The position numbers and the translations under genes are program-made. The notes beneath the pieces are model-generated. The model was given only the letters and a program-made list of their open reading frames with translations. It had not been told where the DNA came from and did not search any database. A stretch of DNA of 11,935 nucleotides from an uncultured Bacteroidales bacterium. Lineage in GTDB: Bacteria > Bacteroidota > Bacteroidia > Bacteroidales > UBA932. Of this stretch, positions 6,673 through 11,539 are shown piece after piece. Position 1 is the stretch's first letter; every line of letters begins with the position of its first letter. The stretch covers positions 1 through 11,935 of the forward strand of contig CAMJHW010000034.1 of the NCBI GenBank assembly GCA_946405645.1, written 5' to 3'.

Positions 6673-8157
6673 ATGAAAAAATGGATTTTTGCAATTCTGC
6701 CGGCCCTTCTGGCCGTCTGCTCCTGCGGCGGGAACAAAACTGAGGATCCTGCCCCGTGTGATCTCCGAAACGGGAAAGTAGTCGTCATCTTTGAGAATTG
6801 TCCGCCTCAGATGAGTACGGGGAAATTCGGTGTTAACTCGTCCCATGCGTTCCATGCTACCATTGCGTATATAGACAATAACGGAGATCTGGTGAGGTTT
6901 GATCCTAGACGGAAAGGTCGGGATACGCTCGAAATCCCAACCCGAAATGGATATGCAGAGATGCAACATATATATCAGGTGGCTGAACAGGAGTATTATT
7001 ACCTGTCGGAGGGCGATACAGCCCTTGTGAGGTATGATCATACGACAGGCAGACCATACTTGACCAGCCTGGTCTATGAGGAGAAGACGGACCTTTATAA
7101 CCTGCCATACACATTGCCTGAAGCTGTTCAGGACAGGGATTACTATATTGAAACGGTCCTGACCGATTTCCACTATACGCTGGCTTTCAATTATTTCCAT
7201 GACAAAACAAAGCAGGCCAGGTTTCCGTCTTTGAAAGAGAAACAGCGTTCCCTTTATGTGGACCTGGATTCTCTGGCTATAGTATATGACCGGTATCAGG
7301 CGGCGCTTAAGGCAGAAATAGATTCTCTTTATCGAGCAAAGACCATCGACGAAACGTATTACCGATATCTTTCCCACCGCTTCTTCCCGAAGGAACGTAT
7401 CGCGCCGGACGCGCTGGTCCGATCAGACAGTTTGATGCGTTTTGTCTCAAATTATTATGAAGTCCTGCATAACAATAATGTAAATATCTTCATTGGGGAT
7501 AACACGCAGAAAGCTTTCAATGCAATTGCGCGTGACACCACATATGGCCCCCTGGCCCGGAAAGGGATGTTGAAACATCTGCTTATTAATAGAATACTGA
7601 CCGATGAGTCTGGTTATGTGCATTATCCGAAGGAACTCAAGACCCGGTATATCAACAAATACATGGAGATTACGGGCGATTCGACGGTGGTCCGGCAGAT
7701 GCGGGAAAACGAGGTCTCGATCGCTTCCTTGAAGTCCGTCCTGCCGCTCGAGCGCGTGGACGGCGAAAATACCGGCCTGGAGAAACTCCTGGAGGGTTAT
7801 CGGGGGAAAGTGGTCTATGTGGACTTCTGGGCATCGTGGTGCGGCCCATGCGTGGGACAATTCCCCGCGGCCCGGGCGCTCCATAAGCGGATGGCCGGGA
7901 AAGATATCGCTTATATTTTCATTTCGACCGACACGAACCGGAAGAACTGGCAGGACGCTGTCCAGCAACATTCCGATCTCCTGGCCGGATCCTACCGGAT
8001 CCTGGATTCCGACGCCGACTTCCTCAAGGAAATCCGGCTGGAGAAGATTCCTCGTTACCTGATTTATGGGCGGGACGGCAAGCTCGTGAACCTGGATGCT
8101 CCCAGACCGACCGATAAGGAGATTGACGAAACGTTGATGGCGGCCTTGAACAGGTAA
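6673..8157 (+). CDS. TlpA-like thioredoxin-domain lipoprotein
   Basis: The product is 494 residues, with a lipoprotein signal (MKKWIFAILPALLAVCSC; lipid cysteine probably Cys18). The C-terminal domain, from about residue 365, is a TlpA/ResA-type thioredoxin fold. It has VVYVDFWASWCGPC with active-site cysteines 390 and 393, a QFPAARALHKR helix, and the cis-proline motif KIPRYLIYG at Pro460. It should act as a thiol-disulfide oxidoreductase on the periplasmic side of a membrane. Residues about 35-360 are a Tyr- and Asp-rich region without a domain I can name; similar N-terminal extensions are common in Bacteroidetes TlpA-like lipoproteins. Codons in the first two-thirds end in A/T far more often than in the last third, a change falling near 7680. 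It is followed by a separate promoter, so it is likely monocistronic. The substrate is unknown. Confidence 0.9.
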   Translation: MKKWIFAILPALLAVCSCGGNKTEDPAPCDLRNGKVVVIFENCPPQMSTGKFGVNSSHAFHATIAYIDNNGDLVRFDPRRKGRDTLEIPTRNGYAEMQHIYQVAEQEYYYLSEGDTALVRYDHTTGRPYLTSLVYEEKTDLYNLPYTLPEAVQDRDYYIETVLTDFHYTLAFNYFHDKTKQARFPSLKEKQRSLYVDLDSLAIVYDRYQAALKAEIDSLYRAKTIDETYYRYLSHRFFPKERIAPDALVRSDSLMRFVSNYYEVLHNNNVNIFIGDNTQKAFNAIARDTTYGPLARKGMLKHLLINRILTDESGYVHYPKELKTRYINKYMEITGDSTVVRQMRENEVSIASLKSVLPLERVDGENTGLEKLLEGYRGKVVYVDFWASWCGPCVGQFPAARALHKRMAGKDIAYIFISTDTNRKNWQDAVQQHSDLLAGSYRILDSDADFLKEIRLEKIPRYLIYGRDGKLVNLDAPRPTDKEIDETLMAALNR

Positions 8158-8160
8158 CCG

Positions 8161-8191
8161 TTGGAATAGTGCGGGGGAATGTGTAACTTTG
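8161..8191 (+). promoter_or_regulatory. Promoter placed for leaderless transcription of the DUF4375-like gene
   Basis: TTG (8161-8163) and TAACTTTG (8184-8191) form a good -33/-7 pair with a 20-base spacer. Only four bases separate the -7 box from the ATG at 8196. Transcription should therefore begin at or very near the start codon. Confidence 0.6.
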
Positions 8192-8195
8192 CTTC

Positions 8196-8783
8196 ATGAG
8201 AATTCCGCCATCGAAGCGCAAAATCTTGATCGGGGCCACGGCAGCTGTGCTCGTGGGCCTGATTGCGTCTCTTTTTCATCTGGATAAATTCTGGAATTTT
8301 GTCGGGGGCGTTGCCGTCATGTATGTCATTGTTTCGCTGGGGTCGTTGATCCCTTCCCGCCGCGAGCGCCGGAAGAAGGGCCTTTGGGAAGAAGACGATT
8401 TCGGCCTGTTCGAGCGTCTCTACGAGGCGCTTTCCGAGCGGACCCATGGCGGCACCGACTTGTCTGCGCTTAATGAGCATGAAAAAGTGTTCCTGACGAT
8501 GGCGCAGCTGGAGGAGAACATCGGATTCTTCTCCGAGTATTTCACCAAATTCCGTGGTGTATACAATGACCTCCTGGTCCCGTCCGCCGAGGCCGTAGGC
8601 AGCCCGGAGATCGCGGAGATCTGCAAGCGGGTGCTGGAGCTCTATGCGGGATATACGGGGACGGAGGAAGGGCTGGACGATCTGTTCGAGGAGTGTACCG
8701 ATGACTTCCATGACGTGGACGACGATCCCCTGGAGCTTTGCGCGCAATACGCGCGGGATCATAAGGAGAGCTTCAGGGAATAA
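8196..8783 (+). CDS. Two-TM membrane protein with a DUF4375 (DMP19)-like cytoplasmic domain
   Basis: The product is 195 residues. A basic N-terminus (RIPPSKRK) leads into two membrane segments, about 10-27 and 33-52, followed by RRERRKK. The positive-inside rule puts both ends in the cytoplasm. The acidic soluble part (about 65-195) contains LSALNEHEKVFLTMAQLEENIGFFSEYF, then SAEAVGSPEIAEICKRVLELYAG, and a DDFHDVDDDPLELCAQYARDH end. This resembles the DUF4375/DMP19 family, whose founding member was proposed to be a DNA mimic; most members are uncharacterised. The match is from memory of the family pattern and is moderate. No enzyme motif is visible. The gene has its own promoter and is followed after 76 bases by a sigma-54-driven porin-like gene. 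It could be a plain accessory membrane protein. Confidence 0.8.
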   Translation: MRIPPSKRKILIGATAAVLVGLIASLFHLDKFWNFVGGVAVMYVIVSLGSLIPSRRERRKKGLWEEDDFGLFERLYEALSERTHGGTDLSALNEHEKVFLTMAQLEENIGFFSEYFTKFRGVYNDLLVPSAEAVGSPEIAEICKRVLELYAGYTGTEEGLDDLFEECTDDFHDVDDDPLELCAQYARDHKESFRE

Positions 8784-8808
8784 TGGCAGAACCACCCTTT
8801 TGAGAGCG

Positions 8809-8824
8809 TGGCAAGCGATTTGCA
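8809..8824 (+). promoter_or_regulatory. Sigma-54 (-24/-12) promoter of the outer-membrane protein gene
   Basis: TGGCAAGCGATTTGCA carries GG and GC with exactly ten bases between them and fits the sigma-54 consensus TGGCAC-N5-TTGCA with only C6 changed to A. Start of transcription is expected near 8835, 25 bases before the ATG at 8860. The same 18-base block recurs before the next gene with one mismatch. No TAnnTTTG box is present in this gap. Confidence 0.8.
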
Positions 8825-8859
8825 TCTGGGTGGACCGGACAAACCTAATAATCAAAATA

Positions 8860-9456
8860 ATGAAAAAATTTCGAATCTTTTCCCTTATGACGGTTCTCGG
8901 AATCGCCGCCTCTCTTCTGTTTGGCTCTGTTGACGCTTCTGCGCAAGGCTACCTCGGTGGCTCTCTCAGCTTCAGAAGCAGTTCTTCTTCAACCTCGAAT
9001 GGTTCAAGCGCTAGCGCTACTACGTTTACCATTGCGCCCAACCTCGGGTGGTTTGTCGGAGACAAATGGGCAGTCGGTATCCGTCCTACGGTCGGATTCG
9101 GCTCGTCCAATGCTTTTACGGTGGGGATCAATCCGTATGCCCGGTACCAGTTCCTTGCCCTTGACAGCTTCGGTATTTGGGCCGAGGCGGATCCGATGTT
9201 CAATTACTCGAAAGCATCGGGGGTCCATTCGACGACTTACGGCGTGGAGCTCATGCCCGTCCTTACGTATGAGCTGAACGACCATATTCTCCTGGAAAGC
9301 CGGCTCAACCTGTTCTCCCTTTCCGTGATGGGGTCCCACACGGCCTCCGACGACGGCCAGGACCGGAGCACCTTCTCCGCCGGCCTGTCCGCCACCACCA
9401 AGAACATTGCCGGGTCCCTGGGAGATATAACCATCGGATTCCTCTACAGGTTCTAG
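8860..9456 (+). CDS. Small outer-membrane beta-barrel protein
   Basis: The product is 198 residues. The start chosen is ATG at 8860, which gives a clean signal peptide (MKKFRIFSLMTVLGIAASLLFGSVDASA, cut before Gln29) and lies after the sigma-54 promoter; the open frame reaches further upstream but that part lies over the previous gene. The mature chain has alternating beta-strand patterns (TFTIAPNLGWFVGDKWAVGIRP, TVGINPYARYQFLAL, FGIWAEADPMFNYS, TYGVELMPVLTYELN) and ends in GFLYRF. That terminal Phe is a typical BAM recognition end. Size suggests an eight-stranded barrel of the OmpW/opacity-like group. A serine-rich stretch at 40-52 is probably the first surface loop. No ligand can be inferred. 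It is expressed from a sigma-54 promoter matching that of the next gene. Confidence 0.88.
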   Translation: MKKFRIFSLMTVLGIAASLLFGSVDASAQGYLGGSLSFRSSSSSTSNGSSASATTFTIAPNLGWFVGDKWAVGIRPTVGFGSSNAFTVGINPYARYQFLALDSFGIWAEADPMFNYSKASGVHSTTYGVELMPVLTYELNDHILLESRLNLFSLSVMGSHTASDDGQDRSTFSAGLSATTKNIAGSLGDITIGFLYRF

Positions 9457-9513
9457 CCTGTCTATCTGCCGGGATTGCGGAGAGGCGACCGGAATGATGA
9501 CGATTCCCGCCCG

Positions 9514-9529
9514 TGGCAAGCGTTTTGCA
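9514..9529 (+). promoter_or_regulatory. Sigma-54 (-24/-12) promoter of the small lipoprotein gene
   Basis: TGGCAAGCGTTTTGCA has the same GG-N10-GC spacing and differs from the upstream copy at one base. Transcription should start near 9540, about 18 bases before the ATG at 9558. There is no terminator between the preceding gene and this promoter, so read-through is also possible. Confidence 0.8.
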
Positions 9530-9557
9530 ATAGGGAGGGGAAATTAAATCAACGCAT

Positions 9558-9995
9558 ATGAAAACCAAGAGATTTTTCCTTTTCCTGCTATTCGCGGCCG
9601 GGCTGTTGATGACCGGCTGTACCGAAAAGGTTATCATGCCTGGCGCGCAGGTGGTCAAATTGGACTACGACGTGCGTGCGAGTCAGTGGGAACTGTACGG
9701 TGACTGCTTCCGCGCGACCCTGGACGTACGGGACATCACTTCGTCCGTGGTGGCCCACGGCAAGGTGGACGTTTCCCGCTGCTACCGCGGCGAGCTTGAC
9801 GGCCAGGATGTCCTGACTCCGTTGCCGTATATCCGCACCGAGATGACGGAGGTGGATGGGAATGACTACATCTTCACTACCTTCATCGACTACGAATGGT
9901 ACAAGGGGACCGTCAATATCTATGTGACGACGTCCGACCTCTTCACCGAGTACAATCCCGGAGACATGTCCTTCCGGGTCTACGTCACGAAGTAA
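9558..9995 (+). CDS. Small lipoprotein of unknown function, Bacteroidetes-type
   Basis: The product is 145 residues. It has a lipoprotein signal MKTKRFFLFLLFAAGLLMTGC with the lipid cysteine at 21. The mature part is beta-rich: QWELYGDCFRATLDVRDIT, TPLPYIRTEMTEVDGNDYIFTTFIDYEWYKGTVNIYVTTSD and FRVYV. The pattern QWEL...FRA...TPLPY recalls a group of Bacteroidetes lipoproteins often labelled collagen-like because of a GPxG stretch after the lipid site. Here only a trace of that stretch (MPGAQ) is left. No catalytic motif is seen, so a binding or structural role at the cell surface is plausible but unproven. It has its own sigma-54 promoter and ends at a strong convergent terminator. Confidence 0.85.
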   Translation: MKTKRFFLFLLFAAGLLMTGCTEKVIMPGAQVVKLDYDVRASQWELYGDCFRATLDVRDITSSVVAHGKVDVSRCYRGELDGQDVLTPLPYIRTEMTEVDGNDYIFTTFIDYEWYKGTVNIYVTTSDLFTEYNPGDMSFRVYVTK

Positions 9996-10015
9996 GGGAA
10001 TTCCCTGAAATAAAG

Positions 10016-10055
10016 CGGTGCGGATGAGCTCTGGCTCACCCGCACCGTCTTTTTT
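10016..10055. terminator. Strong terminator between convergent genes
   Basis: Bases 10016-10029 pair with 10034-10047 along 14 positions with a single A-C mismatch and a TCTG loop, followed by six T at 10050-10055. It ends the lipoprotein transcript. On the minus strand the hairpin is followed by a T-rich CTTTATTTC, so it may also stop transcription from the opposing operon. A perfect palindrome GGGAATTCCC lies just before it at 9996-10005. Confidence 0.88.
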
Positions 10056-10065
10056 GTACTCCTCC

Positions 10066-11157
10066 TTAGCGGTACTCCTCGTACTCGGGCATCGCGAGCT
10101 GGGAGAGGAAGTCCTTGAGCTTCTCCTCGTCGCGCGGGCAGATCATCAGCACGTCTTCCGTGTCCACGACGATGAAGTCCTTGAGGCCGCGGACGGCCAG
10201 GAGCTTGTCGTCGCGGGTGGAGTAGACGATGTTGTCGGAACTGTCCTTGAGCAGGCGGCGGGCCGTCCGGTTGAGGGCGTTGCCCTGGTCGTCATGGTAG
10301 GCGAGGTAGTCGTAGAGCGACTCCCAGTTTCCGATATCGGCCCAGCGGAACTCGGCGGGGTAGACCCAGGCGTTGTCCGTCTTCTCCATCACGGCGTAGT
10401 CGATCGAGGTGCGGGGCATGTCGGTATAGATGCGCTCCAGGAAGGCTTTCTGGTTGTCGGTGTCGAGGACCTCCTGCCAGCCCTTCCAGAGGTGGGTGAT
10501 CTCCGGAGCGTGTTTCTCCAGCTCCTGGCGGATGGCGTCGGCGCGCCAGACGAAGATACCGGAGTTCCAGAGGAACTCGCCGGTGTCGATGAAGACGCGC
10601 GCAAGTTCGGGATCCGGCTTCTCGGTGAAGGTCTTGGTCTTGACGGGCTGGCCCTTTTCGGGCTTGCCCGCCATCTGGATGTAACCGAAGTTGGAATCGG
10701 CGCGGGTCGGGATGACGCCGAGGGTGATCAGGGCGTCGGACCCGGCGGCATAGGCAAGCGCGTCCGAGAGCGTCTTGTTGAATGCGTCGTGGCGCGCGAT
10801 GGCATGGTCGGAAGGCGTCACCACGCAGATGGCGTCCGGGTCGCGCTTGAGGATCACGTAGGTGGCGAAAGCGATGCAGGGCGCCGTGCTGCGGTTGTAC
10901 GGCTCGAGCAGCAGGTTCTCCTCGCGCAGCTCGGGAAGGTGCGCCCGGACCTGCTCGCGGTAGCGCTCCAGGCTGACGACGAGGATGTTCTCTTCCGGGA
11001 TGATGACCTTCATGCGGTCATAGGTGCGGCGCAGGAAGGAGCGGCCCTGGATGCTGAAATCCAGGAACTGCTTGGGCATTCCGGTGCGGCTGATGGGCCA
11101 GAAGCGGGACCCGATCCCGCCGGCCATGATTATACAGTAGTGGTGGTTATTAAGCAT
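10066..11157 (-). CDS. manC: Mannose-1-phosphate guanylyltransferase (GDP-mannose synthesis)
   Basis: This enzyme makes GDP-mannose from mannose-1-phosphate and GTP in the cytoplasm, feeding mannose and fucose into surface glycans. The product is 363 residues, the single-domain form without a C-terminal phosphomannose isomerase cupin. The nucleotidyltransferase signature is at residues 10-32 (IMAGGIGSRFWPISR...PKQFL). Further motifs are LEPYNRSTAP (84-93), TPSDH (114-118), FTEKP (177-181), FLWNSGIFVW (195-204) and the RWADIGNW segment near 271. It is the third gene of a minus-strand operon; its ATG overlaps the end of yraN by 8 bases, suggesting translational coupling. The pairing with DNA-related genes is probably just genomic neighbourhood. 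The symbol is the functional one; short forms are also called manC/rfbM. Confidence 0.94.
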   Translation of the reverse strand: MLNNHHYCIIMAGGIGSRFWPISRTGMPKQFLDFSIQGRSFLRRTYDRMKVIIPEENILVVSLERYREQVRAHLPELREENLLLEPYNRSTAPCIAFATYVILKRDPDAICVVTPSDHAIARHDAFNKTLSDALAYAAGSDALITLGVIPTRADSNFGYIQMAGKPEKGQPVKTKTFTEKPDPELARVFIDTGEFLWNSGIFVWRADAIRQELEKHAPEITHLWKGWQEVLDTDNQKAFLERIYTDMPRTSIDYAVMEKTDNAWVYPAEFRWADIGNWESLYDYLAYHDDQGNALNRTARRLLKDSSDNIVYSTRDDKLLAVRGLKDFIVVDTEDVLMICPRDEEKLKDFLSQLAMPEYEEYR

Positions 11158-11539
11158 AAAGTGGTATAAAGGCGTTCGGATAATACTCTATTTCAAAGTC
11201 TGCGCCAGTCCCGAAGAAAACGACGGACATCACGTCGAAAATGATCTCCAGGTCGGCCGGAAGGGCCTTCCGGTCCGCGGAGTGCAGGAAGGCGTTGGCG
11301 GCGGCGACCATCCGCCGCTGCTTGTCGCGCCGGACGTTCTGCTCCGGCTCCGCCATCACCGGCGCCACGCGGCTCTTGACCTCCACGATGTGGAGTTCGT
11401 TGCCCAGCAGGGTAATGATGTCCAGCTCGAGGTGGCCGTTGCGCCAGTTGCGCGCAAGGATGCGGTGCCCCAGGCGCGCCAGGTAGCTGCTGGCTTCCTC
11501 TTCGCCTTTCCGGCCCACGGTCGCTCTGTCGGTCCTCAT
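11150..11539 (-). CDS. yraN: YraN / UPF0102 family endonuclease-like protein
   Basis: The product is 129 residues, the usual family length. UPF0102 proteins have a fold like Holliday-junction resolvases and other restriction-type nucleases; their cellular role is not settled. The N-terminal GRKGEEEASSYLARLGHRILARNWR helix-strand is typical. The nuclease-like core GHLELDIITLLGNELHIVEVKSR carries Asp40, Glu53 and Lys55 in the D...ExK arrangement. The common GE(I/L)D form is here HLELD. The start codon overlaps the mutS2 stop as ATGA, and its own end overlaps the manC start by 8 bases, so all three are one translationally coupled unit. Confidence 0.92.
   Translation of the reverse strand: MRTDRATVGRKGEEEASSYLARLGHRILARNWRNGHLELDIITLLGNELHIVEVKSRVAPVMAEPEQNVRRDKQRRMVAAANAFLHSADRKALPADLEIIFDVMSVVFFGTGADFEIEYYPNAFIPLYA

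Follow-up and report, generated by a model that had tools for sequence, protein, structure and literature searches.

Promoters of the sigma-54 type are recognised by a consensus with elements at -24 and -12. RpoN holoenzyme forms a closed complex at such a promoter, and ATP hydrolysis by an AAA+ activator brings about its opening. Within the Bacteroidota, a sigma-54 regulon has been mapped in Flavobacterium psychrophilum, where its promoters (SM4) serve chaperones, lipoproteins, an outer-membrane precursor, exported proteins and the small RNA (sRNA) Rfp36; the available parts of that report also describe sigma-54 promoters before grpE-dnaJ, groESL and dnaK, three PF00158 proteins, and an activator-lptE pair placed under another promoter type, SM5 (PMC9723704). 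Francke et al., according to the portions of their text at hand, put forward sigma-54 as a controller of the bacterial exterior (PMC3162934). For Bacteroides thetaiotaomicron, a 2025 bioinformatic survey states, in the section available, that grpE and groES are sigma-54 dependent (PMC12316311), and the FopS sRNAs of this species are described, in the accessible part of their report, as transcribed from sigmaABfr promoters and as repressing SusC translation (PMC11697453). The main texts of certain B. thetaiotaomicron transcriptome papers contain none of the terms RpoN, sigma54 and sigma-54, and among open-licence PMC papers we found no mapped Bacteroidales sigma-54 regulon. The first-pass annotation of the DNA described here called such control little described in Bacteroidales; this holds for mapped regulons among those papers, but it has to be qualified by the mapped regulon in the same phylum (PMC9723704) and by the statement on B. 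thetaiotaomicron grpE and groES (PMC12316311), as far as the excerpts of both sources go. Very little is on record about sigma-54 in Bacteroidales, and the locus reported here points to a testable regulon.

The window, the whole stretch of 11,935 nucleotides that was analysed, comes from an uncultured Bacteroidales bacterium. Its nearest genome, G001, has 92% of sampled 31-mers in common with it, and the window probably belongs to the 'Candidatus Cryptobacteroides' group because an exact sRNA core typical of G001's genus matches that group. Two plus-strand blocks, P1 (8807-8824) and P2 (9512-9529), follow the pattern CGTGGCAAGCG(A/T)TTTGCA and, as first described, are identical at 17 of 18 positions with GG-N10-GC in both. 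We predict each to be a sigma-54 (-24/-12) promoter: P1 reads CGTGGCAAGCGATTTGCA, with GG at 8810-8811 and GC at 8822-8823, and P2 reads CGTGGCAAGCGTTTTGCA, with GG at 9515-9516 and GC at 9527-9528. When the C of GC is taken as -12, the predicted starts fall at 8835 and 9540, 25 and 18 nt before the ATG codons at 8860 and 9558, in agreement with the short leaders that had been claimed; the promoter-distal part of gap 1 (8825-8859, +) would hold the leader from 8835, and that of gap 2 (9530-9557, +) the leader from 9540.

The gene behind P1 (8860-9456, +) encodes a 198-aa outer-membrane beta-barrel protein with a signal peptide and a small-barrel fold model, and the gene behind P2 (9558-9995, +) a small lipoprotein of 145 aa with a lipobox, LMTG-C, recognised by eye. 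A DMP19-like protein (PF14300 by Pfam) is encoded upstream of P1 (8196-8783, +), and a hairpin with a T-run, read by eye 3' of the lipoprotein gene (10014-10055, +), is a likely intrinsic terminator. The envelope identity assigned to both genes stands, on the barrel-like model of the one and the lipobox of the other. AlphaFold2, with 37 sequences, modelled the former as a beta protein of ten strands (mean pLDDT 82), and Foldseek against the PDB returned 25 matches at E<=0.001, outer-membrane barrels for the most part, headed by FapF (5.8e-5, TM 0.33) and followed by OmpW (6e-5, TM about 0.5), then NspA and OmpA. PF13505 was present in 10 of 80 relatives of this protein found in a large protein collection; Pfam assigned no family to either envelope protein. 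The lipoprotein model is mostly beta (pLDDT 83), and its fold search in the PDB gave nothing at E<=0.001. Searches for related loci with the beta-barrel protein in genome contigs and with the lipoprotein in viral contigs found none.

On both strands of the whole window, exact TGGCA-N6-TTGCA occurs at P1 and P2 only; the remaining 10 of the 12 matches to this pattern carry two mismatches each, and the total of 12 is ordinary, since shuffled sequence gives 8.0 on average and 12 or more in 25 of 200 trials. When each gap was resampled 200,000 times under a first-order Markov model, an exact site arose by chance in 0.0295% of cases for gap 1, in 0.006% for gap 2, and never in both together. Neither gap has a TAnnTTTG (sigmaABfr) box, even with one mismatch allowed, as had been noted. 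An exact box lies within 120 nt upstream of four of eight other window genes checked (rpsL, the TlpA-like gene, DMP19 and a TPR gene) and is missing there from rpsG, fusA, the minus-strand nucleotidyltransferase gene and the minus-strand activator gene, the last having been checked from its TTG start, so that a box beside a later ATG may be missed. Scored with a matrix of 78 unique 16-mers taken from the genus's sRNA promoters, P1 comes first (14.7) and P2 second (13.4) among all window positions; the next best, at 11207 (-) within a coding frame, scores nearly as high (12.9). The training median is 18.8; 16 of the 78 training sites do not exceed P1, and 13 do not exceed P2.

The lack of an rpoN gene and of block conservation in close relatives had been named beforehand as findings that would speak against sigma-54. 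G001 carries one intact rpoN, encoding a 467-aa protein with activator-interacting (AID), core-binding (CBD) and DNA-binding (DBD) domains, and judging from G001 the window's own strain presumably has rpoN as well. Both 18-mers are unchanged in G001, and 17 of the 23 bases before P1 are identical between window and G001. Three G001 proteins have a full PF00158 domain, and three more matches are weak. One activator (L050 1258-2403, -) joins a receiver to an AAA+ domain in which GSFTSA replaces GAFTGA, with no helix-turn-helix (HTH) found by Pfam; another is a receiver-AAA-HTH protein with GAFTDA whose gene adjoins a histidine-kinase-like gene. The window itself holds a sigma-54 activator gene, AAA+ with GAFTGA, that is cut by the window end (2-1153, -); the complete G001 copy encodes 407 aa with a Fis-type HTH, no receiver domain was found in it, and an lptE gene comes next after it. 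This activator is a candidate for driving P1 and P2, from which its gene lies 7.7 kb away, a closeness that is no proof of a role. Neither a comparison of 12-mers between pairs among four promoters nor a search for dyads turned up a convincing upstream activator site common to the promoters. A dyad, TGAC-N5-GTCA, lies just upstream of the sigma-54 sites at three grpE genes (L002, L113, L116), which are also the 3 of 10 promoters classed as 'other' that have it, and is a candidate activator or repressor site. Because it is missing from all 110 sRNA promoters, the 27 lipoprotein promoters and both window promoters, more than one activator is likely to serve these promoters.

Comparison with a second genome of the genus, G174, revealed a feature that the first-pass annotation missed. 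At the G174 locus (L169), a match to window positions 7620-8833 (81%) is directly joined to a match to 9514-11494 (90%), and the two overlap in a single block, TGGCAAGCGATTTGCA, whose left flank is like that of P1 and whose right flank is like that of P2; the order there is DMP19, single promoter, lipoprotein gene, with no beta-barrel gene between them. In the window, P1 and P2 thus form a direct repeat on either side of a gene that is missing from a relative. The blocks would be nearly identical because they are the same promoter in two copies, one on each side of the beta-barrel gene. The alignments fit both the duplication of one promoter and the collapse of two through recombination, and likewise both a repeat-mediated loss in G174 and a gain of gene and promoter copy in the lineage of the window and G001. 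The history leans to gain because the gene is rare in the genus sample: a search at E<=1e-20 found it in 7 of 400 genomes, at 36-43% identity in the six other than G001. Conservation of P1 is seen in G001 only, since no close ortholog of the beta-barrel gene occurs outside G001 in the 400 sampled genomes; closer relatives are metagenome proteins of unknown context, mostly at 42-57% identity. Behind its DMP19 gene, at 8783-8792, the window reads ATGGCAGAAC, a sequence like the beginning of the gene that comes after a DMP19-like gene in L393 and L395 (DMP19-like genes at 38-44% identity), L394 having ATTGCAGAAC; the window sequence is a possible insertion scar.

A further exchange appears to have affected the lipoprotein gene. 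Neighbouring genes are 94-99% identical between window and G001, but the lipoprotein gene is just 68% identical at the nucleotide level, the alleles compared being window 9558-9995 and G001 C5:64249-64683. Because the G001 and G174 alleles are 88% alike and each is 68-70% identical to that of the window, the window allele looks exchanged, with boundaries close to P2 and to the terminator.

The lipoprotein family, present in 51 of 400 genus genomes (E<=1e-6), allowed upstream regions to be compared at 50 homologous loci from 50 genomes, with G001 in and the window out; G125, a second partial match in G394 and two weak loci (L048, L049) were left out. GG-N8-TTG stands at -52 to -36 from the ATG in 27 of the 50 loci, against a mean of 0.55 and a maximum of 3 in 300 shuffles, a comparison that is optimistic and figures that are indicative because the block form and the range were set after the loci had been viewed and the homologs are non-independent. 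Six other 17-position bins hold 0-2 such blocks each. A TAnnTTTG box occurs at -36 to -18 in 8 of the 50 loci, both box types together in none (Fisher p 9e-4 for exclusivity), and neither in 15, four of which lie directly behind folD; the start codon is uncertain in the weakest homologs. At the -12 position the 27 blocks have A in 12, C in 8, T in 6 and G in 1. Upstream folD sequence was recognised in four of the 27 block-bearing loci (L182, L185, L192, L194), in all of which the folD 3' end contains or adjoins the sigma-54-like block; tails similar to folD by eye were seen in L181 and L184, and L179 and L180 matched the non-FolD lead of the query. Since the block overlaps folD 3' codons, part of the likeness could be a coding relic in some loci. 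The idea that the family block is merely such a relic was rejected, other loci being without folD and the distance to the ATG being kept. Sequence comparison suggests a family whose homologs, in many contexts, have a promoter of either the sigma-54 or the sigmaA type.

In the genome-wide motif scan proposed in the first-pass annotation, raw counts show no clear enrichment over the reversed pattern. Eight whole genomes contain 59 sites with exact TGGCA-N6-TTGCW and 48 with the reversed pattern, and the one-mismatch motif, with 160 sites in G001, is rarer there than its reversal (181). Raw counting was discarded as evidence, being uninformative by itself; the motif alone is weak evidence, and position and conservation carry the sigma-54 case. 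Sites outside any open stretch of at least 120 codons number 14 of 59 for the sigma-54 pattern and 1 of 30 for the control, these being the 30 of the 48 control sites with loci. The gene context of the 59 sites, read from their neighbourhoods and with Pfam, includes grpE, which has an exact site upstream in three of the eight genomes (G001, G009 and G014; ATG 29, 29 and 123 nt after the -12 C, with dnaJ behind grpE in G001) and no exact TGGCA-N6-TTGCW before it in the other five. Exact sites also lie upstream of the ATP-type phosphoenolpyruvate carboxykinase gene in G014 and G034 (L095, L120) and of the class II aldolase gene in G014 and G030 (L115, L135).

The same promoter type precedes an sRNA of about 80 nt, in which a conserved AU-rich 5' part from the predicted +1 is followed by a terminator hairpin. 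Copies lie at L005 1526-1602 (+), L123 825-904 (+), L034 1369-1445 (-), in L213-L242 and elsewhere, and in G001 at C2:463477, C5:111941, C1:472618 and C3:215284. A covariance model of seven copies matches in 59 of 61 genus genomes and in 26 of the 26 of high quality; it covers the transcript only, and the family is not wholly independent of the sigma-54 pattern because the seven training copies were found through it. Thirty model-found loci comprise 23 with GG-N10-GC, 6 with GG-N10-G (two of them with a sigmaA box as well) and one, L229, with a sigmaA box only. Among the matches listed, exact-core copies (at least 120 usable, from 119 loci, and one more cut by a contig end) have GG-N10-GC in 103 of 120, GG-N10-G, a loose test, in 9 and neither in 8; a sigmaA box was present in 13 of these 120, namely in 2 of the 103, 4 of the 9 and 7 of the 8. 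The exact core belongs, among the matches listed, to Bacteroidales or Bacteroidia bacteria, four Candidatus Cryptobacteroides species and one Rikenellaceae bacterium. Across the order the model gave weak matches in 52 of 198 genomes, a number that counts G001 and a second member of the genus, and the 28 order-level loci inspected had a sigmaA box in 13 cases, a sigma-54 element in one and neither in 14. When 16 order-level loci were compared with Rfam, two reached the FopS cut-off of 56 bits in the position of the model match (L366 at 60.7, L376 at 56) and one scored 43; among 11 genus loci, two matched FopS in the same place below 56 bits (L231 at 32.4, L223 at 31.8), two matched BTnc049 in the same place at 31-32 bits, below its cut-off, and L005 and L034 had no match at E<=5.

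Our data support the sigma-54 promoter reading well: rpoN and activators are present in G001, the blocks are unchanged there and the -24/-12 block recurs before the lipoprotein family. The closed two-unit regulon that had been suggested finds no support and is too narrow, because the promoter type also precedes the FopS-like sRNAs and, in certain genomes, the grpE, phosphoenolpyruvate carboxykinase and aldolase genes; surface remodelling, the role proposed with it, is a fair guess. We consider it highly probable, on these sequence comparisons, that three things hold jointly, namely that P1 and P2 are true sigma-54 promoters, that they belong to a wider regulon in the genus and that the blocks are recombined copies of a promoter. 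In the scheme that we infer for P1 and P2, which extends to their activity, RpoN dependence, start sites, activator and signal and to the direction of recombination, RpoN holoenzyme would bind TGGCA (-24) and TTGCA (-12) as a closed complex, an AAA+ activator would hydrolyse ATP and open it, and transcription from near 8835 and 9540 would yield short-leader mRNAs for the beta-barrel protein and the lipoprotein. Both promoters would sit within a genus regulon that includes FopS-like sRNAs, grpE and some central-carbon genes, and the beta-barrel gene would have been gained or lost by recombination at the 18-bp repeat that they form.

The same repeat could be read as nothing but a recombination site, a scar of the gain or loss of the beta-barrel gene whose likeness to sigma-54 promoters is incidental. 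The blocks flank that gene exactly, G174 has one block where the gene is missing, and the divergence of the lipoprotein gene (68% against 94-99% for its neighbours between window and G001) would be another exchange bounded near P2. This reading is nevertheless very improbable, since lipoprotein homologs elsewhere keep the -24/-12 block at a similar distance from the ATG (27 of 50), and in none of these is there a sigmaA box as well. We hold it to be very improbable, too, that what recognises the block is some other DNA-binding protein, or an ECF sigma factor whose signature resembles GG/TTTG, and not RpoN. Many blocks of the lipoprotein family do have A or T in place of the -12 C (C in 8 of 27), and no activator site was found upstream; however, the GG-N10-G spacing is fixed, rpoN and activators are present, and the C also varies at the sRNA promoters of the genus (23 GC, 6 G and 1 neither; n=30), which are of the classical form TGGCAC-N5-TTGCA.

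A different kind of proposal refines the sigma-54 promoter reading and is not a full alternative to it, namely that the locus belongs to a homolog of the Flavobacterium sigma-54 regulon for protein quality and envelope stress, with the window's lptE-linked activator as the switch. The exact site before grpE in three of eight genomes is consistent with this, as are the sigma-54 promoters before chaperones and lipoproteins and the activator-lptE pair described for F. psychrophilum in the available text (PMC9723704). The grpE dyad is absent, however, at P1 and P2, at the 27 lipoprotein promoters and at the 110 sRNA promoters, which makes a different activator likely there, and we regard the proposal as rather unlikely. 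We advance only tentatively, as a possibility in which our confidence falls short of even, that sigma-54 in Ca. Cryptobacteroides acts as a two-arm switch for surface remodelling: one arm would consist of portable lipoprotein genes, joined here by the beta-barrel gene, and the other of FopS-like sRNAs, whose promoters would have been taken over from sigmaA and which, by analogy, may repress SusC-type transporters, the promoter travelling with surface-gene cassettes or joining them. If this were true, a gene would join the regulon or drop out of it when its promoter is altered or becomes the site of an exchange. Through the lipoprotein family and the FopS-related sRNA family, sigma-factor exchange at promoters can be put directly to the test in a genus common in gut and rumen. 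The locus is more structured than it first appeared: its promoter repeat is the mark of a gene gained or lost, the promoters of its lipoprotein family are mixed, and a FopS-like sRNA of the genus has promoters of the sigma-54 type.

Set beside the described systems, sigma-54 promoters before surface genes are of an ordinary kind and, as far as we searched, new for Bacteroidales. The view of Francke et al. has lipoprotein and outer-surface genes as sigma-54 targets in common with this locus; it differs in that the words 'Bacteroid' and 'Porphyromonas' are absent from the main text, to the extent available (PMC3162934). The sigmaABfr promoters (TAnnTTTG) stand before 8 of the 50 homologous lipoprotein genes and before other window genes, but they are absent from the P1 and P2 gaps. 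With the SM4 promoters of F. psychrophilum, as the accessible sections present them, the locus and its relatives share membership of the Bacteroidota, a -24/-12 element before surface genes and an sRNA, three PF00158 proteins and an activator-lptE pair, whereas that species belongs to another class of the phylum and its starts were mapped (PMC9723704). The genus sRNA resembles FopS (RF04319), as described in the available excerpt, in being multicopy and in having a single-stranded 5' part and a terminator hairpin; unlike FopS, it scores below the gathering threshold of 56 bits and has, in most copies, promoters of the sigma-54 type, not of the sigmaABfr type (PMC11697453). A FopS relative driven by sigma-54 would represent a wiring different from that of Bacteroides.
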